A DNA stretch of 64,000 nt, taken from the NCBI RefSeq assembly GCF_001424755.1, contig NZ_LMRF01000006.1, positions 351,862 through 415,861 on the forward strand, read 5' to 3'. This DNA is from Marmoricola sp. Leaf446. GTDB lineage: Bacteria; Actinomycetota; Actinomycetes; Propionibacteriales; Nocardioidaceae. A model generated the notes under the pieces. It did no database searches. It was not told where the DNA came from and worked only from the letters and a program-made list of their open reading frames with translations. Position numbers and translations under genes: made by a program. Positions 39,775 to 62,460 of the stretch are shown here, one piece after another (the stretch's first letter is position 1; every line of letters begins with the position of its first letter).

Positions 39775-40560
39775 TCAGACGTCGGAGCCCAGCTCGGCGT
39801 CGACGTCCTCCTCGGTGGTGGCGCCAGACAGGGGCGGCTCGTCGTCGTGCAGGTGGCGGATGCCGGCGTCGACCTCGCCGTCGAAGGTCAGCCGGCCCTG
39901 CTCGAGCACCAGCACCCGGTCGCACATCGCGCGCACCGACGCGGTCGCGTGGCTGACGTAGAAGATCGTGGTGCCCTGGCGACGGATCTCCTGCATCTTC
40001 TCCATGCACTTCTTCTTGAAGGGGCGGTCCCCCACCGCCAGCACCTCGTCGGCCAGGAAGATGTCGGCGTCGACGTGCACCGCGATGGAGAAGCCCAGCC
40101 GGGCGTACATGCCCGAGGAGTAGTGCGAGACCGGGGTCTCGAGGAACTTGCCGATGTCGGCGAACTCCACGATCTCGTCGAAGCGACGGTCGATCTCCCG
40201 CTCGTTCATCCCGAGGATCGCGCCGTTGAGGTAGAGGTTCTCCCGACCGGTGAGCTGGGGGTGGAACCCGGCCCCGGTCGCGATCAGGCCCGCGATCCGG
40301 CCCCGGGTCAGGACGGTGCCGCGGTCGGGTCGCATGACACCGTTGAGGACCTTGAGCAGGGTGCTCTTGCCGGACCCGTTGAGCCCCATCAGACCGATGG
40401 ACTCGCCCTGCTCGACGGTGAACGAGACGTCCTGGACGGCCTGGAACTGCTCGGTCAGGGGCAGCCGCCGCACCGACGCGACGGCCATCTGCTTCAGGGT
40501 GCGGTGGTACTGCATCGTGAAGTGCTTGCTGACGTGGTCGACCTCGATGGACACACTCAT
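39775..40560 (-). CDS. wzt: polysaccharide ABC exporter ATP-binding protein (Wzt-like)
   Basis: 261-residue ATPase subunit of an ABC-2 glycan exporter. Walker A GLNGSGKST at ~59-67, signature SSGMYARLGFSIA, Walker B ADIFLADEVLAVGD and H-loop YVSHATASV. It ends soon after the nucleotide-binding domain and lacks the C-terminal carbohydrate-binding module of O9a-type Wzt, like mycobacterial Rv3781, which exports galactan. ATG 40560 overlaps the permease stop (TGATG); GTG 40563 is the alternative. Confidence 0.94.
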   Translation of the reverse strand: MSVSIEVDHVSKHFTMQYHRTLKQMAVASVRRLPLTEQFQAVQDVSFTVEQGESIGLMGLNGSGKSTLLKVLNGVMRPDRGTVLTRGRIAGLIATGAGFHPQLTGRENLYLNGAILGMNEREIDRRFDEIVEFADIGKFLETPVSHYSSGMYARLGFSIAVHVDADIFLADEVLAVGDRPFKKKCMEKMQEIRRQGTTIFYVSHATASVRAMCDRVLVLEQGRLTFDGEVDAGIRHLHDDEPPLSGATTEEDVDAELGSDV

Positions 40561-41569
40561 CACAGACGCTCCGGGAACTGGCCCTCGACGCGCGAGAAGA
40601 ACCGTTGCGCGCCGGCGAGCAGGACGAGGCTGATGGCCAGGGTGATCAGACCGCGGACGAACATGTCCGGCGGGAAGGCCTGGCCGAGCGAGGACGGGTC
40701 ATCGACCAGGGGGTACCAGAAGAAGCGCTGCAGCAGCATGACCGCCTGCGCCACCGGGTTGGCGACGTAGATCTGGTAGAGCACCGGGTGGTCGGCGTGG
40801 GCGGCGTAGATGCGCTCGAAGGGGTAGATCATCGGCACCAGGAAGTGCATGAACTGCAGGATCGTGCCGACGATGTTCTGGAAGTCGCGGTAAAAGACGT
40901 TGATGGCCGAGAAGAAGATCGCCAGCGCCGCCGAGAACACCGCCAGGATCGACAGGCCCAGCACCAGCGCGGCCACCGAGGTCCAGGTGATGCTCCACCC
41001 GATGAACAGGCAGCAGACCACGAGCACGAGCACCTGCGGGAAGGTGTGGTAGGCCGCGACCACCATGGCCGAGACCGGGAAGATCTCCCGCGGCATCCGC
41101 ATCTTCTTCACCAGCGCCTGGTTCTGCCAGATCGACCGGGTGCCGCCGTTCCAGGTCTCGCTGAAGTAGTGCACCACCACCATGCCGGTGAACAGGTGGA
41201 TCGCGAAGTAGGGGAAGCCCTGGTGGAGCACCAGGATGTAGCCCATCACGACGTAGTAGACGCCGAAGCGCATCGCCGGCTGCACGTAGGACCACAGCAG
41301 CCCGAGCAGCGAGGCGCTGTACATCGCCGCGAGCTGGCGCCGCACGATCAGGCGCAGCAGGTAGGGCTGGTGGAAGACCTCGACCAGTCCACCGCGCGGG
41401 GCGGGGGCCTGGAGCTCGGCCTCGACGGTGCGCGTCTCCCGGGGGCCGTCGACGGCCTCCACGACCGGCATCGCGTCGGCCTGGCGCCGGGCGAGCCGCC
41501 GGGCCCTCCGGCTGGCGTTCCGGGGTCGCTCGCCGGTCTCCCGGGTCGCGGTCCGCTTGTCTGCGGGGT

Positions 41570-41573
<4 letters not shown>
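40560..41573 (-). CDS. wzm: polysaccharide ABC exporter permease (Wzm-like)
   Basis: 337-residue ABC-2 permease. A ~70-residue charged cytoplasmic N-terminus precedes the family start VFHQPYLLRLIVRRQLAAMY and six helices; WNGGTRSIWQNQALVKKMRMPREIFP is the typical coupling region and NVFYRDFQNIVGTILQ the second signature. It pairs with the Wzt gene to move a lipid-linked glycan across the membrane. ATG 41573 overlaps the GlfT2-like gene by four bases. Confidence 0.94.
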
Positions 41574-46667
<5,094 letters not shown>

Positions 46668-46674
<7 letters not shown>

Positions 46675-48143
46675 GCCGAGGAGAGGTCCTCGGCCTGGTT
46701 GGCACCGTAGCCGTCACGCAGGTTGCCCAGGGAGCCGCCGGTGGTGCCGGTGTCCTTCGGGCTGGTGGGAGCCGGGGCCGGGTCGGCCTGCCGGGCACCG
46801 TCGTCCTGGGACTTCTCCGGCGGGTCGACCGCCTTCTGCACCGCGGCGTGGATCTTGTCGATGTCCGGGTCGCCGGTGGAGATCATCGGCGGCACGAAGG
46901 AGACGGTGCGCACCGGCTGGCTGCGTGCCTGGAGCGCGAGCCGCATGAAGCGGTCGACGTCGCCCTGCGGGATGTCGGTGGTGATCAGCGCCTCGCCCGC
47001 CTCGGCGATCTTCTCGAAGTTCATCACCACGGTGCGGGGGCTGAGCTGGTGCAGCATCGCGTTCATCACGCACTTCTGCCGCGCCATCCGGGAGTAGTCG
47101 TCGGCCGCGACGCGTGACCGGGCGAACCACAGCGTCTCGAAGCCGTCCAGCGTGCGGGTGCCGGGCTCGACGTAGCCGGTCACCGGGGCGCCGATGCCGC
47201 CGATCGGGATGCGGTCGCGCACGGTCAACTCGACCCCGCCGACGGCGTCCACGAGCTTCTCGAAGCCCTGCAGGTTGACCATGGCGTAGTAGTTGATCTC
47301 GAGCCCGGTGATCCCCTCGACGCCCTCCTTGGTCGCCTCGACCCCCGGGTCGGCGTACCCCTCGAAGAGGGACTCGTGGTCCGCGGCCCAGGTGGCCAGC
47401 GAGTTGAGCTCGCACTCGGGACCGCAGTCGTAGCCGTCCGGGAACTGCTCGTGCATCACCGAGCCCTCGGGGAACGGGAAGTCGAGCATGTTGCGCGGCA
47501 GCCCGAACAGCACGGTCTCGCCGGTCTCGGCATCGATGCTGGCCACGGAGATCGAGTCGGGTCGCATCCCCCAGCGGTCGGCGCCGGAGTCGCCGCCGAG
47601 CAGCAGCACGTTGTAGCGGCCGTCGTGGGCACCGACCGTGGTGCCGTCGGCGAACATCGTGCTCACCAGGTCGCGCTGCACCCCGACGACGTGGGAGGCG
47701 AACAGCAGCGAGCCCGCGACGCCGAAGCACAGCACGCCGTTGATGCCGACCATCGCCAGGCGCTGCTTGCGGTGCAGGGTGAGCGGCTCGCCCAGGCGCC
47801 ACGCGTCGACGAGCAGCAGGGCCCAGCCCACGGCGAGCGCCATCAGCACGACCCGGAGCGTGCCGAGCACCGGCGGGCTGCTCAGCAGCCAGAACACGAA
47901 GGCGTCGAAGACCAGGCCCAGGCCGAAGAGCACCAGGGCGGTGGCCCACAGGCCGATCCACACCCGCAGCGCGACGCGACCCACCCGCTTGTTGCCGGCG
48001 ACCAGCTGCGCCGACCCCGGCGCCACCAGGGTCATCAGCATCAGCACCAGGGCGCGGCGGAAGTGGTGGGGGCTGCGGCCGGGACCGCCGCCACCGCCGC
48101 CGCGCGAGGTGGCGCGAGGTGGTTCGGTCAGGACTGACGCCAT
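46668..48143 (-). CDS. LCP family glycopolymer ligase with multi-helix N-terminus
   Basis: 491-residue LytR-CpsA-Psr protein; LCP enzymes attach glycopolymers to peptidoglycan muramic acid phosphate. Unlike typical single-helix LCP proteins it has about four hydrophobic helices in residues 30-155, then the LCP domain with YNVLLLGGDSGADRWGMRPDSI, GLPRNMLDFPFP and FARSRVAADDYSRMARQKCVM, containing the conserved arginines. The C-terminus is a disordered Pro/Asp tail ending in Cys. GGAGAGG precedes ATG 48143. It leads the glycan operon. Confidence 0.92.
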
Positions 48144-48292
48144 GGGGAAGGCCTCTCCGGTGTGGTCGCGGGCGAGGGTGGTCGAGGAACGCTGGGGGGC
48201 ACCGCTCGCTGCTCGTGGAGGGTGCGGACCAGTATCACCAGCCGACCCGCCGCCGACCGGTCCGGCGCGCCGGGAGCGGCCGCCCTGCGCGG

Positions 48293-48298
48293 TAGCGT
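48293..48298 (+). promoter_or_regulatory. -10 element of a leaderless promoter (second LCP gene)
   Basis: TAGCGT, six bases before ATG 48305, which has no ribosome binding site. Confidence 0.45.
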
Positions 48299-48304
48299 CG
48301 GCGC

Positions 48305-49582
48305 ATGCCAGCAGGTGGAGGCGGGTCAGGACGGCGCCCGGACGACGACGACTCGCAGTACGGCTGGCTCTACGGCAGCTCCGACGACCGGCCCGGTGGG
48401 TCCGGTCGACCCGGCTCGGGCGACCCCGAGCCCACCCGGATGATCCCCCGGCTGGACCGGCGCACGGGCCGGCCGGTGCAGGAGGAGCGCACCACCGCGA
48501 TCCCCCGCGAGCCGCGCCCGCGGCAGGACGCCCGCGACCCGCGTGGCGGCGGTGAGCCTCCCCGGCGCATCGTGCAGCCGCCCCGCGAGGCGGCGGGCGG
48601 CGGCCGGCCCCGGCGTACCCGACGACGCCGGCCGTGGGGCCGGATCGTGCTGCTGGTGCTCGTGGCCTGGCTGGTGTTCCTGGTCGCCGTGCCGATCTGG
48701 GCCGTGGGACGGATCGAGAAGGTCGACGCCTCCCCCGACGCCGACCGGCCCGACCAGCAGCCGGGGCGCACCTACCTGCTGGTGGGCTCCGACAGCCGCA
48801 AGGGTCTGAGCGAGGCCGAGAACCGGCGGCTCGGCACCGGCGGGGTCGACGACACCAGCCAGCGCACCGACACGATCATGCTCCTGCACACCGGGTCGGG
48901 CCCCTCGATGCTGCTCTCCATCCCCCGTGACTCGCTGGTGAACGTGCCCGGGACGGGCCGGACCAAGATCAACTCCGCCTTCGCCCGCGGTGGGCCGGGA
49001 CTGCTCGTGCAGACCATCGAGGAGAACACCGGTGTCCGGGTCGACGACTACGTCGAGATCGGCTTCGGCGGGTTCGTCAACGCGGTCGACGCGGTCGGCG
49101 GGATCACGGTGTGCCCCCGGGAGCGGATGGTCGACCCCAAGGCCAACCTGCGGATCCGCAAGGGCTGCCAGGAGGTCGACGGCGTCACGGCGCTGGGCTA
49201 CTCGCGCTCGCGCTACGTCAGCCGGTACGGCGACCTCGACCGTGCCCGCCGCCAGCGCGAGGTGGTCAGCGCGATCGGCGCCGAGGTCAAGTCGCCGTGG
49301 ACCTTCCTCAACCCGGTCCGCTACTTCCGCGTCAACCAGGCCGCCACCTCCTCGCTGCGCATCAGCGAGGGGACCGACCCGGTCGCGCTGGCCCGGTTCG
49401 GGCTCGCCATGACCCGCGTCAACGGCATCGACGGGCTGACCTGTGGCATGCCGATCGCCGACCAGGAGGTCAACTGGGACCGGGAGCGGGCGCTGGCGCT
49501 GCTGGCGTACGTCAAGGAGGACCGCACCGGTGACATCCCCAAGGAGCTGTGCACCCCGACCGGGTTGGCCGGGGTCGGCTAG
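48305..49582 (+). CDS. LCP family protein
   Basis: 425-residue LytR-CpsA-Psr protein: a ~115-residue basic, disordered cytoplasmic N-terminus, one transmembrane helix at ~118-137 (IVLLVLVAWLVFLVAVPIWAV), then the LCP domain with TYLLVGSDSRKGL, RTDTIMLLHTGSG, LLSIPRDSLVNVPG and GYSRSRYVSRYGDLDRARRQ. All expected arginines and aspartates are visible. It is divergent from the first LCP gene, 161 bases away, so both may act on the galactan made by the neighbouring operon. Confidence 0.93.
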   Translation: MPAGGGGSGRRPDDDDSQYGWLYGSSDDRPGGSGRPGSGDPEPTRMIPRLDRRTGRPVQEERTTAIPREPRPRQDARDPRGGGEPPRRIVQPPREAAGGGRPRRTRRRRPWGRIVLLVLVAWLVFLVAVPIWAVGRIEKVDASPDADRPDQQPGRTYLLVGSDSRKGLSEAENRRLGTGGVDDTSQRTDTIMLLHTGSGPSMLLSIPRDSLVNVPGTGRTKINSAFARGGPGLLVQTIEENTGVRVDDYVEIGFGGFVNAVDAVGGITVCPRERMVDPKANLRIRKGCQEVDGVTALGYSRSRYVSRYGDLDRARRQREVVSAIGAEVKSPWTFLNPVRYFRVNQAATSSLRISEGTDPVALARFGLAMTRVNGIDGLTCGMPIADQEVNWDRERALALLAYVKEDRTGDIPKELCTPTGLAGVG

Positions 49583-50552: not shown

Positions 50553-50616
50553 AGCCCCATCGGATTTCACCCCTTCGGGCTCGACTGTCCGGGATGCGGA
50601 CGGGTATGGGGCCAGC

Positions 50617-51768
50617 ATGTCCGTCGTCCCCACGACGTCGTCCCCGGTCACCACCCTCCGACCGGACCGCTCGACGTCCCCCAGCCCCCGAGCCCCCGGT
50701 GCGACCACCGTCGTCGCCTCGGTGCCCGGCTCGCACGTCTACGTCCGTCACGTCGCGGCCGAGCAGCCCGACGGCGTCGTACGGCTGGCCGACCCGGACC
50801 CCGACGACCCCACCCGCACCACGACGACGCGGTGGTGGCCGCCGGTGATGCTGTCCCCGGAGTGGGTCGCGCGGGCCGACTTCGACGTCTTCCACGTGCA
50901 GTTCGGCTTCGACTCCTGGGAGCCGGACCGGCTCGAGGCCGTCGCGCAGGCGGTGCACGCCCGGGGCGCCCGGCTGGTCCACACGGTGCACGACCTGCGC
51001 AACCCGCACCACACCGACCCCACGCTCCACGACGCCCAGCTGCGCGTGCTGCTGGCCCACGCCGACGAGGTGCTCACGCTGACGGCCGGTGCTGCGGCGG
51101 AGGTCGAGCGTCGCCACGGTCGCCGCCCCACGGTGGTGCCCCACCCCCACGTGGTCGAGCTCGGCACCATGGCGTCGTACGCCGCCCGCCCGCGCCCGGC
51201 GGGTCCCTTCCGCATCGGGCTGCACGTCAAGAGCCTGCGTGCCAGCCTGGCGCCCGAGGTGGTGCTCCCCGCCCTCGTCGAGGCCGTCGCCGACCTGCCC
51301 GACACGGTGCTCCAGGTCAACGGGCACCGCGACGTGCTCGACGGCGACAGCCCCCGGGCCGACCACGCGCTGGCCGCCGAGCTGCGTCGGCTGGACGCGG
51401 CCGGTGCGCTGGAGCTGCACGTCCACGACTACCTCACCGACGCCGAGCTGTGGGACTACCTGCACCGGCTCGACGCGTCGGTCCTGCCCTACCGCTTCGG
51501 CACCCACTCCGGCTGGCTCGAGGCCTGCCGCGACCTCGGCACCGCCGTGGTCGCGCCGACCTGCGGGTTCTTCGCCGACCAGGGCCCGGTGCACTCCTAC
51601 GACCTCGACGAGGAGCGCTTCGACGCCGACTCGCTCGTGGCAGCCGTGCGGGCGGCCCGCGACGCGGGGCCGGTCGCCCCCGTCACGGTCGCGGAGCGAC
51701 GGGCGCAGCGCGCGGCCGTGGCCGCGGCGCACCGGGAGGTCTACGGGCGGGCCGGGCAGGCCTCATGA
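50617..51768 (+). CDS. GT4-like glycosyltransferase, cassette gene 1
   Basis: 383-residue GT-B glycosyltransferase-like protein. Motifs: ADFDVFHVQFGFDS, LVHTVHDLRNPHH, donor-side VLPYRFGTHSGWLEACRDLGTAVVAP. In GT4 enzymes the nucleotide-sugar site has an EX7E motif; here the second Glu (WLEA) is kept but the first position is Phe, so the site is degenerate or specialised. First of four glycosyltransferase genes joined by four-base overlaps (stop overlaps ATG 51765). Donor and acceptor unknown. Confidence 0.85.
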   Translation: MSVVPTTSSPVTTLRPDRSTSPSPRAPGATTVVASVPGSHVYVRHVAAEQPDGVVRLADPDPDDPTRTTTTRWWPPVMLSPEWVARADFDVFHVQFGFDSWEPDRLEAVAQAVHARGARLVHTVHDLRNPHHTDPTLHDAQLRVLLAHADEVLTLTAGAAAEVERRHGRRPTVVPHPHVVELGTMASYAARPRPAGPFRIGLHVKSLRASLAPEVVLPALVEAVADLPDTVLQVNGHRDVLDGDSPRADHALAAELRRLDAAGALELHVHDYLTDAELWDYLHRLDASVLPYRFGTHSGWLEACRDLGTAVVAPTCGFFADQGPVHSYDLDEERFDADSLVAAVRAARDAGPVAPVTVAERRAQRAAVAAAHREVYGRAGQAS

Positions 51769-52838
51769 GGTTGCGCATCTGCCTGATCGCCTCCTCGCGG
51801 TTCCCGGTCGCCGAGCCCTTCATGGGCGGGCTGGAGGCCCACACCCACTCCCTGGCCGCCGCGCTGAAGCGACGCGGCCACGAGGTGCTGGTCTTCGCCG
51901 GGCCCGGCAGCGACCCCGCCCTCGAGGCGACCACGCTGCCGGTCGCACCGTTCTCGAGCAGCGAGGCGGCCCGCTCCGACGTGGGCGGCCGTCCCGAGCA
52001 GTGGATGGCCGAGCACCACGCCTACCTCGACCTGATGCTGGCGCTCGCGCGCGGCGACCACGGCCACGTCGACGTGGTGCACAACAACAGCCTGCACCAC
52101 CTCCCGATCGCGATGAGCCGCACGCTGTCGGCCCCGCTGCTGACCACGCTGCACACCCCGCCCATCGCGTGGCTGGAGTCGGCGGCCGAGTTCGCCGCCA
52201 GCAACGCCCACTACGTCGCGGTCAGCGACCACCTGGCCCGCTCCTGGGAGCACGTGGTGACCGCCGAGACCATCCCCAACGGCATCGACACCGCCGCCTG
52301 GCGCCCGGGCCCCGGCGGCCCGCGCGCGGTCTGGTCGGGACGGCTGGTCGCCGAGAAGGCACCCCACGAGGCGATCGACGCGGCCCGGCTGGCCGGTGTG
52401 CCGCTCGACCTCGTCGGCCCGGCCCACGACCCGGCGTACTTCGCGCGCGAGGTGGAGCCCCGGCTCGGCGCGGGGGTCCGCTACCTCGGCCACCTCGCCG
52501 GGGACCCGCTGCGGCGGCTGGTCGGCGAGGCCGGCGTCGCCGTGGTCACGCCCGCCTGGGACGAGCCGTTCGGGCTGGTCGCCGCCGAGGCGCTGGCGAG
52601 CGGGACGCCCGTCGCGGCGTACGCCCGGGGTGCGCTGCCCGAGATCGTGACGCCCGGCTGCGGCCGGCTGGCTGTCGGCGGCGACACCGCCTCGCTGGCG
52701 GTCGCGATCCGCGAGGCGATGACGCTCGACCGCGGTGCCGCACGCCGACGGGCCGTGGAGCACTTCGACGTCGAGGTGATGGTCGACCGCTACGAGGAGA
52801 CCTACCGCTGGCTCTCCGGGGTGAGGGACGCGGCGTGA
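51765..52838 (+). CDS. GT4 family glycosyltransferase, cassette gene 2
   Basis: 357-residue retaining GT-B enzyme. N-terminal acceptor domain with SRFPVAEPFMGGLEAHTHSLA and VDVVHNNSLHHLPIA; donor domain with AVWSGRLVAEKAPHEAIDAA and a complete EX7E motif in EPFGLVAAEALASGTPV, consistent with a functional GT4 enzyme. No membrane segment; cytoplasmic. ATG 51765 overlaps the previous stop (ATGA), and its stop overlaps the next start (GTGA). Confidence 0.92.
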   Translation: MRLRICLIASSRFPVAEPFMGGLEAHTHSLAAALKRRGHEVLVFAGPGSDPALEATTLPVAPFSSSEAARSDVGGRPEQWMAEHHAYLDLMLALARGDHGHVDVVHNNSLHHLPIAMSRTLSAPLLTTLHTPPIAWLESAAEFAASNAHYVAVSDHLARSWEHVVTAETIPNGIDTAAWRPGPGGPRAVWSGRLVAEKAPHEAIDAARLAGVPLDLVGPAHDPAYFAREVEPRLGAGVRYLGHLAGDPLRRLVGEAGVAVVTPAWDEPFGLVAAEALASGTPVAAYARGALPEIVTPGCGRLAVGGDTASLAVAIREAMTLDRGAARRRAVEHFDVEVMVDRYEETYRWLSGVRDAA

Positions 52839-53863
52839 TCGGCTACTACGTCCACCACCAGGGCAGCGGCCACCTCCACCGCGCCCTGGCCGTCGCCCGC
52901 GCCTGGGTGGCGCAGGGCGGGGAGGTCACCGGGCTCTCGTCCGCCGAGCGGCCGCGCGAGTGGCCCGGCCCCTGGGTGCGGCTGCCCCTGGAGGACGTCA
53001 CCGACCCGGCGGTCGCCGTCGACCCGACGGCCGGCGGCGCGCTCCACTGGGCGCCCCGCGGCGACGGCGGGCTGCTGGCCCGGCAGGGCGCGATCTCCGG
53101 GTGGTTGGCGTCGGCCCGACCCCGGGCGTTCGTGGTCGACGTGTCGGCCGAGGTCGCCTGGCTGGTGCGGCTGCACGGGGTGCCCACGGTCACCGTGGTG
53201 CAGCCCGGCCACCGGGCCGACGACGCGCACCTCGCGGCCTACCGCTCCGCCTCCGCGCTCGTCGCGCCCTGGCCCGCCGCCGCCGAGCAGCGCGTCGCCG
53301 GGGGCTTCACGCCCCGGCTGCCCCTCGACGTCCGCACCCGGGTGCAGCCGGTCGGCGCCATCTCGCGGCTCGGCACCACCGGTCTCGACGCGGGGCCCGC
53401 GCGCCCGGCGCCCGACCCCGGCCACGCCGTGGTGCTGCAGGGCCGCGGGGGCGGACGGCTGACCGAGGAGTCCGCCACGGACCTGGGTCGTCGGCTGCCG
53501 CGCTGGCGGTGGACGGTGCTCGGGGGCGGCGGCACCTGGGTCGAGGACCCGGCCGCGGTGCTCGCCTCCGCCGGGCTGGTCGTCGCCCAGGCCGGGCTGG
53601 GCTCCCTCGCCGACGTCGCCGCGCTGCGGCGACCCGCGGTCGTGGTCCCCTTCCCCCGCCCGTACGACGAGCAGCACGCCACCGCCCGGGTGCTGGCCGC
53701 CGGTGACTGGCCGGTCGTCGTGGCCGCCTCCGGCGCCGAGGCGCTGCGCGAGGAGACCCTCGACGCGGCCGCCGCCCTCGACGGCGAGGCCTGGCGGGGC
53801 TGGGTCGACCCCGACGCGCCCGCCCGGGTCGCCAAGGCGGTCGCCGAGGTGGCGCTCCCGTGA
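52835..53863 (+). CDS. MurG/GT28-like glycosyltransferase, cassette gene 3
   Basis: 342-residue GT-B protein of the GT28/GT1 type. The N-terminal HHQGSGHLHRALAVARAW is the glycine-rich GxGH acceptor loop of MurG-like enzymes; the C-terminal VVAQAGLGSLADVAALRRPA and VPFPRPYDEQHATARVL correspond to the donor-binding region. It starts at GTG 52835 in a GTGA overlap and is itself overlapped by gene 4. Acceptor and donor are unknown; it does not look like a second MurG. Confidence 0.85.
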   Translation: MIGYYVHHQGSGHLHRALAVARAWVAQGGEVTGLSSAERPREWPGPWVRLPLEDVTDPAVAVDPTAGGALHWAPRGDGGLLARQGAISGWLASARPRAFVVDVSAEVAWLVRLHGVPTVTVVQPGHRADDAHLAAYRSASALVAPWPAAAEQRVAGGFTPRLPLDVRTRVQPVGAISRLGTTGLDAGPARPAPDPGHAVVLQGRGGGRLTEESATDLGRRLPRWRWTVLGGGGTWVEDPAAVLASAGLVVAQAGLGSLADVAALRRPAVVVPFPRPYDEQHATARVLAAGDWPVVVAASGAEALREETLDAAAALDGEAWRGWVDPDAPARVAKAVAEVALP

Positions 53864-54729
53864 GCCCGTCGGCCCGCGCGACCTCCGACCACGTCGCCGT
53901 CATCACCCTCGTGCGCGGCCGTCGCGAGCACCTGGCCCGCCAGCAGCGGTCGCTGTCCCGCGGGACCGTCCGGCCCGGGCAGTGGGTCGTGGTGGCCATG
54001 GACGACCCCGGCCTGGTCGACTTCTCCCCCCGAGACGGCGTGCGCCCGACCGTGGTGCACCTCGACGCCGACCCGCGGCAGCTGCCCCTCGCGGCGGCCC
54101 GCAACGCCGGCGCCGAGCGCGCCCTGGCGGGCGGTGCACGGGTGCTGGTCTTCCTCGACGTCGACTGCCTCGCCGGGCCCCACCTCGTCTCGTCCTACGA
54201 CGCCGCCGTGACCGACGACCCCGACGTGGTGTGGTCGGGCCCGGTGACCTACCTGCCCGCGGGCCTCGACGAGGAGCAGCTCGCGACCCCGTGGACGCTC
54301 GACTCCCCCCACCCCGCCCGCGCGATGCCGCCCCCCGGGCAGCGGGTGCTGGGGGCCCCGCCCGAGCTGTTCTGGTCGCTGTCCTTCGCCCTGTCCGCGC
54401 GGGCCTGGGAGGCCACCGGCGGCTTCTGCGAGGACTACGTCGGGTACGGCGGGGAGGACACCGACTTCGGCATGCTCGTCGTGGAGCGCGGGCTCGAGCA
54501 CGGCTGGCTCGGCGACGCCCGCGCCTACCACCAGCACCACCCGACGTCGTCGCCGCCGGTGCAGCACCTCGAGGCGGTGGTGCGCAACGGCGCCGTCTTC
54601 CGCGACCGGTGGGGCTGGTGGCCCATGACGGGGTGGCTGGAGGCCTTCGAGGAGCGCGGGCTGGTCGAGCGCGTCGGCGACGACTGGCGGCTCGTCGAGG
54701 GCGCCCGGGTGGACCACCCCACGACGTAG
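53860..54729 (+). CDS. GT2 glycosyltransferase with galactosyltransferase-type C-terminus, cassette gene 4
   Basis: 289-residue GT-A enzyme. AVITLVRGRREHLARQQRSL opens a GT2 fold, LVFLDVDCLAGPH contains the DXD metal site, and YGGEDTDFGMLVVERG matches the GT7-C/galactosyltransferase signature. GTG 53860 sits in the GTGA overlap with gene 3. Last gene of the cassette: two GT4-type, one GT28-type and one GT2 enzyme suggest at least a tri- or tetrasaccharide. Confidence 0.9.
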   Translation: MSPSARATSDHVAVITLVRGRREHLARQQRSLSRGTVRPGQWVVVAMDDPGLVDFSPRDGVRPTVVHLDADPRQLPLAAARNAGAERALAGGARVLVFLDVDCLAGPHLVSSYDAAVTDDPDVVWSGPVTYLPAGLDEEQLATPWTLDSPHPARAMPPPGQRVLGAPPELFWSLSFALSARAWEATGGFCEDYVGYGGEDTDFGMLVVERGLEHGWLGDARAYHQHHPTSSPPVQHLEAVVRNGAVFRDRWGWWPMTGWLEAFEERGLVERVGDDWRLVEGARVDHPTT

Positions 54730-55056: not shown

Positions 55057-55344
55057 ATGAGCAAGATGGACAACCTGCGCGCCATGCGCGAGGCACGCTT
55101 CGAGCAGAACGCCGCCCGTGCGGGCACCCGCCCGGCGGCCCGACGGGCCACCCCGCCCGTCGCGCCCCCCGAGGAGGCATCGCCCCGCGGCGCCCGCGCC
55201 GCCAAGCCCCCCAAGCCCGCCGATCCCGCCGCCGGGTCCGCCGCCACGGGGGCCGCCGAGGCCCTGTGCGGCCACCGCAACATGAGCGGTCGCACCTGCA
55301 CCCGCGAGGCCGGGCACGCGGCGAAGAGCCACCGCTACTCCTGA
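55057..55344 (+). CDS. small protein with C-terminal Cys/His motif
   Basis: 95 residues: a helical N-terminus (KMDNLRAMREARFEQNAAR), a Pro/Ala-rich linker, and the C-terminal motif CGHRNMSGRTCTREAGH followed by KSHRYS. The spacing CxH-x7-C-x5-H could bind zinc. I recall similar C-termini in other actinobacterial proteins but no family name. It lies between the inhibitor-like gene and the kinase gene, with 48- and 61-base gaps. Confidence 0.65.
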   Translation: MSKMDNLRAMREARFEQNAARAGTRPAARRATPPVAPPEEASPRGARAAKPPKPADPAAGSAATGAAEALCGHRNMSGRTCTREAGHAAKSHRYS

Positions 55345-61612: not shown

Positions 61613-62041
61613 TTACCCGTGGAGCTGGTGGTGCTCCTGGGACGACCCGCTGCCGACCTCGATCTTGCGCGGCTTGGCCCGCTCCGCGACCGGGACCACC
61701 AGCCGCAGCACGCCGTCGGCGTAGTCGGCCTGGATCCGGTCGAGGTCGAGGTTGTCCCCCAGGACCAGCTGACGGCTGAACATGCCGCGGCTGCGCTCGG
61801 AGGTCAGCATCTCCCAGTCGCCGTTGCGTGGCAGCCGCTCGGCCCGGACGGTGAGCACGTTGCGCTCGACGTCGAGGTCGATGGTCTCGCGGGCGACGCC
61901 CGGCAGGTCGAACTCGATCACGAACCGGTCGCCCTCGCGCCAGGCGTCCATCGGCATCGCCGCGGGTCGGGTCGCCGTGCCCATCATCTGCTGGGCGAGG
62001 CGGTCGAGGTCACGGAACGGGTCGGTGGTGCGCAGCAACAT
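61613..62041 (-). CDS. Hsp20-family small heat-shock protein
   Basis: 142-residue alpha-crystallin-type chaperone that holds unfolding proteins. Short N-terminal arm ([19 protein letters not shown]), crystallin domain from [27 protein letters not shown] to [23 protein letters not shown], including the A-x-x-x-n-G-v-L motif, then a short His-rich tail. ATG 62041 is fixed by AGGAGG five bases upstream. A strong promoter with an operator-like inverted repeat lies upstream, facing the HspR-like regulator. Confidence 0.94.
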
Positions 62042-62061
62042 CTCTTCCTCCTCGGAGTCGT

Positions 62062-62081
62062 CAGGTCGTCGGGACGACCTG
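62062..62081. promoter_or_regulatory. 20-base perfect palindrome in the hsp20 leader
   Basis: CAGGTCGTC and GACGACCTG flank GG. It lies in the transcribed leader between the promoter and the ribosome binding site, so it could be a second operator or an RNA hairpin affecting translation, for example thermosensing. Confidence 0.5.
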
Positions 62082-62098
62082 TAATGTCTGATACAGGT
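62077..62098. promoter_or_regulatory. operator-like inverted repeat at the hsp20 start site
   Basis: ACCTGTA-N8-TACAGGT: seven-base arms, perfect, immediately downstream of the -10 box and covering the expected transcription start. A dimeric MerR/HspR-type protein bound here would block transcription. It is not the HAIR sequence (CTTGAGT-N7-ACTCAAG) of known HspR. Confidence 0.6.
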
Positions 62099-62128
62099 TT
62101 TATAGATCGACCGAGGTGCTTCTTTCAA
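62099..62128 (-). promoter_or_regulatory. sigma-A promoter of hsp20
   Basis: Minus strand: TTGAAA (62128-62123), 18-base spacer, TATAAA (62104-62099). Near-consensus in both hexamers and unusually AT-rich for this genome; strong promoter expected when not repressed. Confidence 0.75.
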
Positions 62129-62157
62129 GTCCGTCATCCACTTTTCCCGGAGGAGTC

Positions 62158-62460
62158 GTGCCCCGTCCCCCGACCCACCACCGCGGCGTCTACGCGATCT
62201 CGGTGGCCGCCGAGATGGTCGCGATGCAGGTGCAGAACCTGCGGGTCTACGAGCGGCGCGGCCTGCTGCGGCCCGACCGCACCGAGGGCGGGACCCGCCT
62301 GTACAGCGCCGCGGACATCGACACGCTGCACCGCATCCGCGACCTGCTCGCCGAGGGCCTCAACCTGGTGGGCGTCGCCCGCGTGCTCGACCTCGAGGCC
62401 GAGAACGCACGACTGCGGGCACGGCTGGGCTCCCGACCCCGAGCTCGGGGGCACGACTGA
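62158..62460 (+). CDS. MerR/HspR-like transcriptional regulator
   Basis: 100-residue single-domain regulator. [27 protein letters not shown] is the MerR-type helix-turn-helix in the HspR variant, and [26 protein letters not shown] the wing and helix; the final ~15 residues are basic. HspR represses heat-shock genes; divergence from hsp20 strongly suggests this one represses hsp20 and itself. GTG 62158 has GGAGG four bases upstream. Confidence 0.88.

Follow-up and report, generated by a model that had tools for sequence, protein, structure and literature searches.

The window analysed here, a 64,000-nucleotide stretch of the Marmoricola sp. Leaf446 genome, carries a run of four glycosyltransferase genes on its + strand, G1 (50617..51768, 383 amino acids), G2 (51765..52838, 357 amino acids), G3 (52835..53863, 342 amino acids) and G4 (53860..54729, 289 amino acids). 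All four reading frames are open, and each stop codon shares a four-base overlap with the next start: ATGA between G1 and G2 (51765..51768), GTGA between G2 and G3 (52835..52838) and GTGA between G3 and G4 (53860..53863), all on the + strand. The window sequence confirms that the four-gene, three-overlap cassette described in the original prediction is real and, as also predicted, no transporter gene lies within the unit. In related loci, with the duplicates L035 (= L101) and L038 (= L102) left out, 272 of 308 cassette junctions had a four-base overlap available (a suitably placed start codon, whether or not it is used). For neighbouring genes on the same strand of these loci the figure was 310 of 938, or 284 of 595 when the pairs were less than 60 bases apart. 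All three junctions offered the overlap in 68 of 91 loci. Such overlaps occur at cassette junctions more than chance would give.

The enzyme families proposed originally held for G2 and in part for the other proteins. On its profile scores G2 clearly belongs to GT4, with Pfam matches to PF13439 (62.6 bits, cut-off 28.5) and PF00534 (57.2, cut-off 26.4). G1 had been called GT4-like; it matched no family in Pfam or NCBIfam, its profile found no match in the PDB, and sequence-profile membership of CAZy GT4 was not seen. The likeness lies in its predicted structure, as the AlphaFold model (pLDDT 81, pTM 0.80) is of a GT4-like GT-B fold, with ManT, PimA and MshA as the best PDB matches (TM about 0.5) and further resemblance to BshA and SenB. 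G3, a GT-B protein of the GT28/GT1 superfamily, scored weakly but above cut-off for Glyco_tran_28_C (26.6 versus 22) and has a MurG-like fold and C-terminal motif, whereas by score it is not MurG (27.9 versus 250.25 bits for the equivalog) and GT1 enzymes match its fold about equally well; natural-product glycosyltransferases also resemble it. G4, taken to be a GT2-type enzyme, contains a galactosyltransferase (7C) region with the motif GYGGEDTDF, barely above the Pfam cut-off (Glyco_transf_7C, 24.7 versus 23), and its GT2-type match, PF10111, fell below cut-off (21.5 versus 27.3).

By profile, the nearest solved relatives of G2 are the glucosylsucrose synthase TeGSS (Tll1591; PDB 7fg9 and 7fga; E 4.5e-54) and the tetrahydrobiopterin glucosyltransferases 5zer, 5zfk and 9v0l (E 2.9e-49), which makes small-acceptor glucosyltransferases its closest group as judged from sequence. 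The available portion of the TeGSS study gives the roles of the diphosphate-binding residues (PMC9909042); with a 3-residue numbering offset assumed between that text and the TeGSS chain, G2 keeps the residues aligned with Arg179, Lys184 and the Glu of the DEP/QEP motif, and its GR-x3-EK and EP motifs align, providing the predicted Arg, Lys and Glu ligands of the UDP diphosphate. TeGSS and the tetrahydrobiopterin enzymes alike use UDP-glucose and small soluble acceptors; according to the same portion, the TeGSS product is linked to salt stress, and its Tyr18 contacts UDP and sucrose (PMC9909042). Unlike TeGSS, the G2 family has Ala, Met or Gln/Thr at the aligned position, never Tyr, and because Tyr18 is not kept, sucrose, the acceptor suggested by TeGSS, is less likely for G2. 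As far as the available text goes, no comparable glycosyltransferase set is reported alongside TeGSS or the tetrahydrobiopterin enzymes (PMC9909042).

The four genes form a conserved unit, as had been proposed. All four families were present in 77 of the best 80 named loci (one of the 77, L126, holding just a G4 fragment), and 70 kept the canonical order and strand; order was counted from tblastn positions, and some HMM hit coordinates (for example in L041, L111, L122 and L168) are shifted because they refer to the final domain of the hit. Loci with the cassette include those of Nocardioides, Aeromicrobium, Janibacter, Agreia and Streptomyces and one of two from Solirubrobacter. Among 394 genomes of the class, searched at E <= 1e-15, G1 was found in 55, G3 in 54 and G4 in 53. 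In this per-genome count, which covers G1, G3 and G4 and includes related, non-independent genomes, 52 of the 57 genomes with any of the three held them all, and the five exceptions had G1 alone (three), G3 alone (one) or G3 with G4 (one). Genomes carrying the genes only independently, which would have spoken against a unit, are thus mostly missing. A plasmid of Rhodococcus qingshengii carries the same block, with an ANTAR protein and a sigma factor of the SigB/SigF/SigG family encoded nearby. A tree mostly follows taxonomy, with Janibacter and Homoserinimonas placed within groups of Nocardioidaceae, and none of the stronger claims depends on it.

The fixed assembly line that had been envisaged, here one of four steps, is not supported, because G1 moves relative to G2–G4 in some genomes. 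Five of the 77 named loci with all four families have G1 downstream of G4; in two genomes (G340 and G221) it is on the opposite strand, and in two others (G172 and G271) it lies far from G2–G4. L045, where gene calls conflict, was left out of this argument. The tight core of the cassette is G2–G3–G4. Glycosyltransferase genes are often clustered, and this independent movement of G1 would fit four genes that share an operon while serving separate pathways, yet G1 accompanies G3 and G4 even in genomes where it is not linked to them (G172 and G271), and the three genes occur together in 52 of 57 genomes; we regard that explanation as highly improbable.

The four-gene set is also incomplete, because six partner genes adjoin the cassette in other genomes and the Leaf446 genome holds all six at three places unlinked to it. 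They encode two further glycosyltransferases (c4 and c0'), a WcbI-like protein, an acyl-CoA-dehydrogenase-like protein (x342), a PIG-L/NodS-like fusion (PIG-L/MT) and an additional GT2. In one locus, L093, all ten genes lie together, with a catalase-cluster gene heading a nine-gene strand run of x342, PIG-L/MT, WcbI, c4, c0', GT2, G2, G3 and G4, to which G1 is convergent. A second locus, L092, has the order catalase, ADH, SDR, x342, PIG-L/MT, GT2, G2, G3, G4 and aminotransferase, and Novosphingobium plasmid pSA2 carries catalase, GT4, GT, a G3-like gene, acyl-CoA dehydrogenase, PIG-L, methyltransferase and a G4-like gene. With a c4 profile made from cassette-bearing genomes, all 23 genomes with strong c4 matches were cassette-positive, and weak matches (E 2e-16 to 7e-11) occurred in 11 further genomes, all cassette-negative. 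Similarly, WcbI was found in 15 of 316 searched genomes, all 15 positive for c4 and the cassette. The partners are nevertheless optional, as 29 of the 52 genomes with G1, G3 and G4 lack a strong c4 match.

Mycothiol synthesis (MshA/MshB) and Nod-factor tailoring (NodB/NodS) combine a glycosyltransferase with a PIG-L deacetylase or a NodS-like methyltransferase, and the partner set likewise pairs glycosyltransferases with PIG-L and NodS-like domains; the difference is that up to seven glycosyltransferases are present here and that G2 scores far below the NCBIfam MshA equivalog cut-off (39.3 versus 462.5 bits). The mycothiol-like pairing of PIG-L with a GT4 enzyme, the relationship of G2 to tetrahydrobiopterin glucosyltransferases, the MshA-, BshA- and SenB-like fold of G1 and the likeness of G3 to natural-product enzymes could together indicate that the product is not an oligosaccharide protectant but a glycosylated cofactor or small metabolite (a pterin, a thiol or a specialised metabolite). 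We consider such a product improbable, as four to seven glycosyltransferases are many for a cofactor, G2 also falls below the BshA and SenB equivalog cut-offs, and none of the recurrent flank clusters could be recognised as serving scaffold synthesis.

The surroundings of the cassette bear on whether its product is a surface glycan. Positions 39775–49582 of the window encode galactan enzymes (UDP-galactopyranose mutase and a GlfT2-like protein), together with an ABC-2 exporter and two LCP proteins; the galactan genes are on the strand opposite to the cassette. These neighbours, the MurG-like fold of G3 and the presence of PimA and ManT among the folds closest to G1 would suit a lipid-linked or surface glycan (a glycolipid or secreted polysaccharide) built at the inner membrane face and finished and exported by genes elsewhere. 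WcbI points the same way, as it belongs to capsule synthesis, although the known protein comes from a Gram-negative capsule cluster, unlike the actinobacterial setting here; the available part of its structural study reports bound CoA, no detected acetyltransferase activity, and no partner or substrate found (PMC4104973). The partner proteins match the WcbI family PF18588 at E 2e-50 to 2e-71, and the Leaf446 protein, at 208 bits (cut-off 29.2), is by profile a member.

Flanks differ between loci, however, and the galactan side was kept beside the cassette in only one of 117 other sources, L033, a close relative, which led us to reject galactan or cell-wall membership as the main reading. The ABC-2 permease of the window had no relative among these 117 sources, where weak generic matches were limited to an ABC ATPase in L100, L123, L170 and L176 and LCP in L116. 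The 30 recurrent flank clusters, each represented by one protein in Pfam searches, included no flippase and no polysaccharide polymerase; those of a transport type were an oligopeptide-type ABC ATPase, seen in 11 loci, and a BrkB membrane protein, seen in 10. By these representatives, the recurrent flanks lack the conserved flippase, polymerase or exporter that accompanies glycosyltransferases in Wzx/Wzy or ABC-dependent polysaccharide clusters, although an exporter may be encoded in non-recurrent flanks or at an unlinked place. A simple hydropathy scan gave no clear membrane helix in any of the ten Leaf446 proteins; G3 has two borderline hydrophobic windows (maximum 1.70), which count towards a lipid-linked or surface product. 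On balance we view a lipid-linked or surface glycan as a possible but rather unlikely outcome.

Across the 117 fetched sources, stress genes turn up repeatedly near the cassette, as does a sigma factor. The sigma-factor cluster that includes the Rhodococcus protein was found in 22 of them and a catalase cluster in 14 (one a duplicate; a raw count at cassette loci), and the window has no catalase near the cassette. Two genes labelled katE743 and ADH397 encode, by Pfam, a SpoIIE-type phosphatase and a spore photoproduct lyase, contrary to their labels.

A candidate SigB/SigF-type promoter, GACT-N15-GGGTAT, lies at 50583..50607 on the + strand, 9 bases before the G1 ATG, and G1 probably has a leaderless or near-leaderless start. 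Among 112 cassette heads, counted with identical or too short upstream stretches left out and with related genomes being non-independent, 35 are preceded by GNNT-N14-16-GGGTAY, the pattern that we take to describe SigB-type promoters, compared with 89 of 1116 other genes (p 4e-11); on the reverse strand it occurred at 3 of the 112 heads. An unbiased hexamer search placed GGGTAC at the top (42/112 versus 114/1116), and the available text of a Streptomyces study describes SigB-type promoters with GNNT −35 and GGGTAC/T −10 boxes (PMC8346170). The enrichment comes mainly from Nocardioides and Aeromicrobium; within 110 bases upstream the motif was absent from all Streptomyces (6/6), Agreia (4/4), Solirubrobacter (2/2) and Herbiconiux (2/2) heads, from the single Rothia, Agrococcus, Homoserinimonas, Sediminivirga and Rhodococcus heads and from 3 of 4 Janibacter heads. 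A GGGT-N15-GGGTAC site precedes c4 in the Leaf446 genome, but the partner heads as a set were not enriched (c4, 1/22; WcbI, 0/18; x342, 0/9), and the idea that all parts of the dispersed pathway share a SigB-type promoter was rejected.

We give about an even chance to the reading that the cassette forms the conserved core of a stress-linked pathway with dispersed genes, which works in the cytoplasm to assemble and modify an oligosaccharide or glycoside. Its product may be a modified, soluble sugar-chain compound that aids stress survival. G2, as a retaining TeGSS/BGluT-like GT4 enzyme, would use a UDP-sugar to glycosylate a small soluble acceptor, and G1, G3 and G4 would extend the chain, with c4, c0' and the extra GT2 where present. 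PIG-L would then take the N-acetyl group off an amino sugar, the NodS-like domain would methylate that sugar, and WcbI would acylate the product. A SigB/SigF-type stress sigma factor would turn on expression, at least in Nocardioides and Aeromicrobium, and the product would serve as an intracellular protectant or be passed to an exporter or acceptor encoded elsewhere.

More tentatively, and at well below even likelihood, the ten genes could constitute an undescribed pathway of seven glycosyltransferases, the PIG-L/NodS-like fusion, a WcbI acyltransferase and an acyl-CoA-dehydrogenase-like enzyme, shared by Actinobacteria with a variant on an alphaproteobacterial plasmid. Its product would be an N-modified, acylated, Nod-factor-like but soluble intracellular stress oligosaccharide, with catalase co-expressed in some genomes. 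The original prediction recognised no described pathway with the four-glycosyltransferase set, and a few narrow searches of open-licence papers likewise found none. If true, common soil- and plant-associated actinobacteria would hold an unannotated, widespread and genetically tractable pathway for a stress-linked glycan, the CoA-binding WcbI would be tied to a defined enzyme set, and there would be a concrete gene list for protection against desiccation, UV and oxidative stress.

The four glycosyltransferase (GT) genes G1 (50617-51768), G2 (51765-52838), G3 (52835-53863) and G4 (53860-54729) are all open on the forward strand, and the original prediction of an overlapping four-GT cassette stands, with successive genes sharing 4 bases (ATGA, GTGA and GTGA). 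A Pfam scan of the cassette proteins placed G2 in GT4, gave weak support for a GT28 C-terminal domain in G3, matched G4 to Glyco_transf_7C just above cut-off and found no family for G1. The predicted G1 model adopts a GT-B fold with GT4-like enzymes (ManT, PimA and MshA) as top PDB matches at a TM-score of about 0.5, and that of G3 is similar to both MurG and GT1 enzymes. Across related loci, a 4-base overlap was available at 272/308 cassette junctions, compared with 310/938 background pairs and 284/595 closely spaced background pairs. The gene that follows the cassette in the window (55057-55344) is kept in fetched loci L033 and L034; its 95-aa product matched no family. The window also holds a cell-wall galactan-type block (39775-48143, reverse strand, and 48305-49582, forward strand), comprising an ABC-2 permease and ATPase, a GlfT2-like galactofuranosyltransferase, a UDP-galactopyranose mutase, a GT2 and two LCP glycopolymer transferases.

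G3 matches at E ≤ 0.001 were present in 28 of 98 genomes (the window's own and relatives), and in 15 of the 28, its own among them, they were near full-length at 1e-45 or better. When G3, G4 and G1 profiles were each run over the same 394 class genomes (E ≤ 1e-15), 54, 53 and 55 genomes, respectively, were positive, and a hand count from the match lists found all three genes in 52 of the 57 genomes with any, two of the 52 being imperfect (a partial G1 match in G452 and a fragmented set in G439). Of the other five, genome G394 had G3 and G4 without G1, G417 had G3 alone, located 1.7 kb from a contig end, and three had G1 alone: G432, G476 and G265, the last by a weak match (1.5e-22). The weakest G3-positive genome in this search scored 3.5e-68, so the G3 family is sharply bounded. 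Second G4 matches, weaker at 1e-16 to 1e-20, come from other loci; in the three that were fetched and in the window's own genome, this is the c0' relative (a GT2 protein).

A pattern scan of named loci gave at least 516 confirmed relatives, of which the best 80 were used, so the sample leans to close relatives. Among these 80, all four families were present in 77, with G1-G2-G3-G4 on a single strand in 70 and the order G2-G3-G4-G1 in 5; G4 is inverted in L116 and present only as a fragment in L126. Three loci were incomplete within the covered stretch: L153 (G3 only), L160 (G3 and G4) and L165 (no G1). Among L033-L047, flanks matched the window fully only in L033 and on the downstream side in L034, and differed elsewhere. 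A Rhodococcus plasmid carries the cassette too; encoded close by are a sigma factor of the SigB/SigF/SigG family, an ATP-binding protein and an ANTAR protein. These differing flanks and the plasmid copy indicate that the genes move yet stay together as a unit, apart from G1 in some genomes.

The fixed assembly line originally proposed was not upheld: rather than a complete four-step line, the four genes form a conserved functional unit that appears to lie at the core of a broader pathway with dispersed genes. Distant loci carry a recurring c4 and c0' pair and a WcbI protein; of two c4 proteins scanned, one matched Glyco_trans_4_4, with a score under the cut-off. A c4 profile, built from cassette-bearing genomes and thus favouring that subfamily, matched 34/394 genomes at E ≤ 1e-10, and all 23 strong ones (E ≤ 8e-77) were cassette-positive, compared with 0/11 weak ones (2e-16 or weaker). 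WcbI, searched with an external Pfam model, occurred in 15/316 genomes, all within the strong c4 set, and in 0/14 control genomes. A third set consists of x342 (acyl-CoA-dehydrogenase-like), a PIG-L/NodS-like fusion and a GT2; L092, L093 and L094 have this set next to the cassette, and in L189 and L193 it accompanies WcbI or c4/c0'. L093 holds all ten genes in a single locus with a catalase-cluster gene, nine on the same strand; overlaps of -1, -4, -8 or -11 there are possible only where start choice allows, and some called starts fall later. All ten genes are present in the window's own genome, spread over four loci: the cassette, c4 and c0' (C5:264063-266398), WcbI (C1:1640618-1641586) and the x342 set (C1:1402257-1405359). 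G1 is separable: G172 and G271 have it at another site, and in G340 and G221 it is on the opposite strand. A second copy of G1 accompanies c4, c0' and WcbI in L195 (G387:C21) and L196 (G440:C7), with the main cassette on another contig, which suggests that G1 is part of both modules. A related catalase-GT4-GT-G3-like-acyl-CoA dehydrogenase-PIG-L-methyltransferase-GT run lies on plasmid pSA2, typed as conjugative, of the alphaproteobacterium Novosphingobium resinovorum (L099 9635-18247).

Upstream of cassette heads (the first cassette genes), the top enriched hexamer was GGGTAC (42/112 versus 114/1116, p 1e-12 before correction). GGGTAY was found at 56/112 versus 181/1116, GNNT-N14-16-GGGTAY at 35/112 versus 89/1116 and a GTTT-like variant at 11/112 versus 37/1116; the window cassette has GACT-N15-GGGTAT nine bases ahead of its ATG. 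Within 110 bases, the motif preceded 25/82 heads pooled from Nocardioides and loci without a genus label, 5/7 in Aeromicrobium, 1/4 in Janibacter and 0/19 in nine other genera. Partner-gene heads showed no enrichment.

Apart from the window, the flank survey covered 117 fetched sources, two of them duplicates; 113 of the 117 carry two or more cassette families. Raw source counts for protein clusters, each named after a scan of one or two representatives, included 29 for SDR, 26 for FdhA-like alcohol dehydrogenase, 22 for a haem-oxygenase-2/CDGSH protein, 22 for the sigma-70-family cluster holding the Rhodococcus factor, 16 for GAF-ANTAR regulators and 14 for catalase HPII. In the window an HSP20 small heat-shock gene (61613-62041) lies 6.9 kb downstream of the cassette; with a divergent MerR-type regulator gene (61613-62460 together) it is kept in L033 and L034. 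Within about 5 kb of the own-genome WcbI (L186 11103-14736; C1, 1643102-1646735) are two divergent genes, one for a SpoIIE-type phosphatase with GAF and HATPase domains and the other for a spore photoproduct lyase. A Paracoccus aestuarii plasmid (L100 9954-21698) carries G3-like and G4-like GTs beside an HAD-IIB protein and the trehalose/glycogen genes treZ, treY and glgX, possibly another stress-solute variant.

Among solved structures, G2 is nearest to the glucosylsucrose synthase TeGSS and tetrahydrobiopterin glucosyltransferases, which use small soluble acceptors (PMC9909042). The nucleotide-binding residues of TeGSS are kept in G2 but Tyr18 is not, making sucrose an unlikely acceptor. A hydropathy scan found no clear membrane helix in the ten pathway proteins; the maxima of G3 (1.70) and WcbI (1.62) lie just above the 1.6 guide value, and two membrane controls reached 2.63 and 2.96. 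Judged by family membership, the PIG-L/NodS-like fusion may yield an amino sugar that is N-deacetylated and N-methylated, and WcbI suggests that the product may bear an acyl group. The product may be a soluble oligosaccharide, a glycoside or a membrane glycan; we favour a soluble, stress-protective one at roughly even odds.
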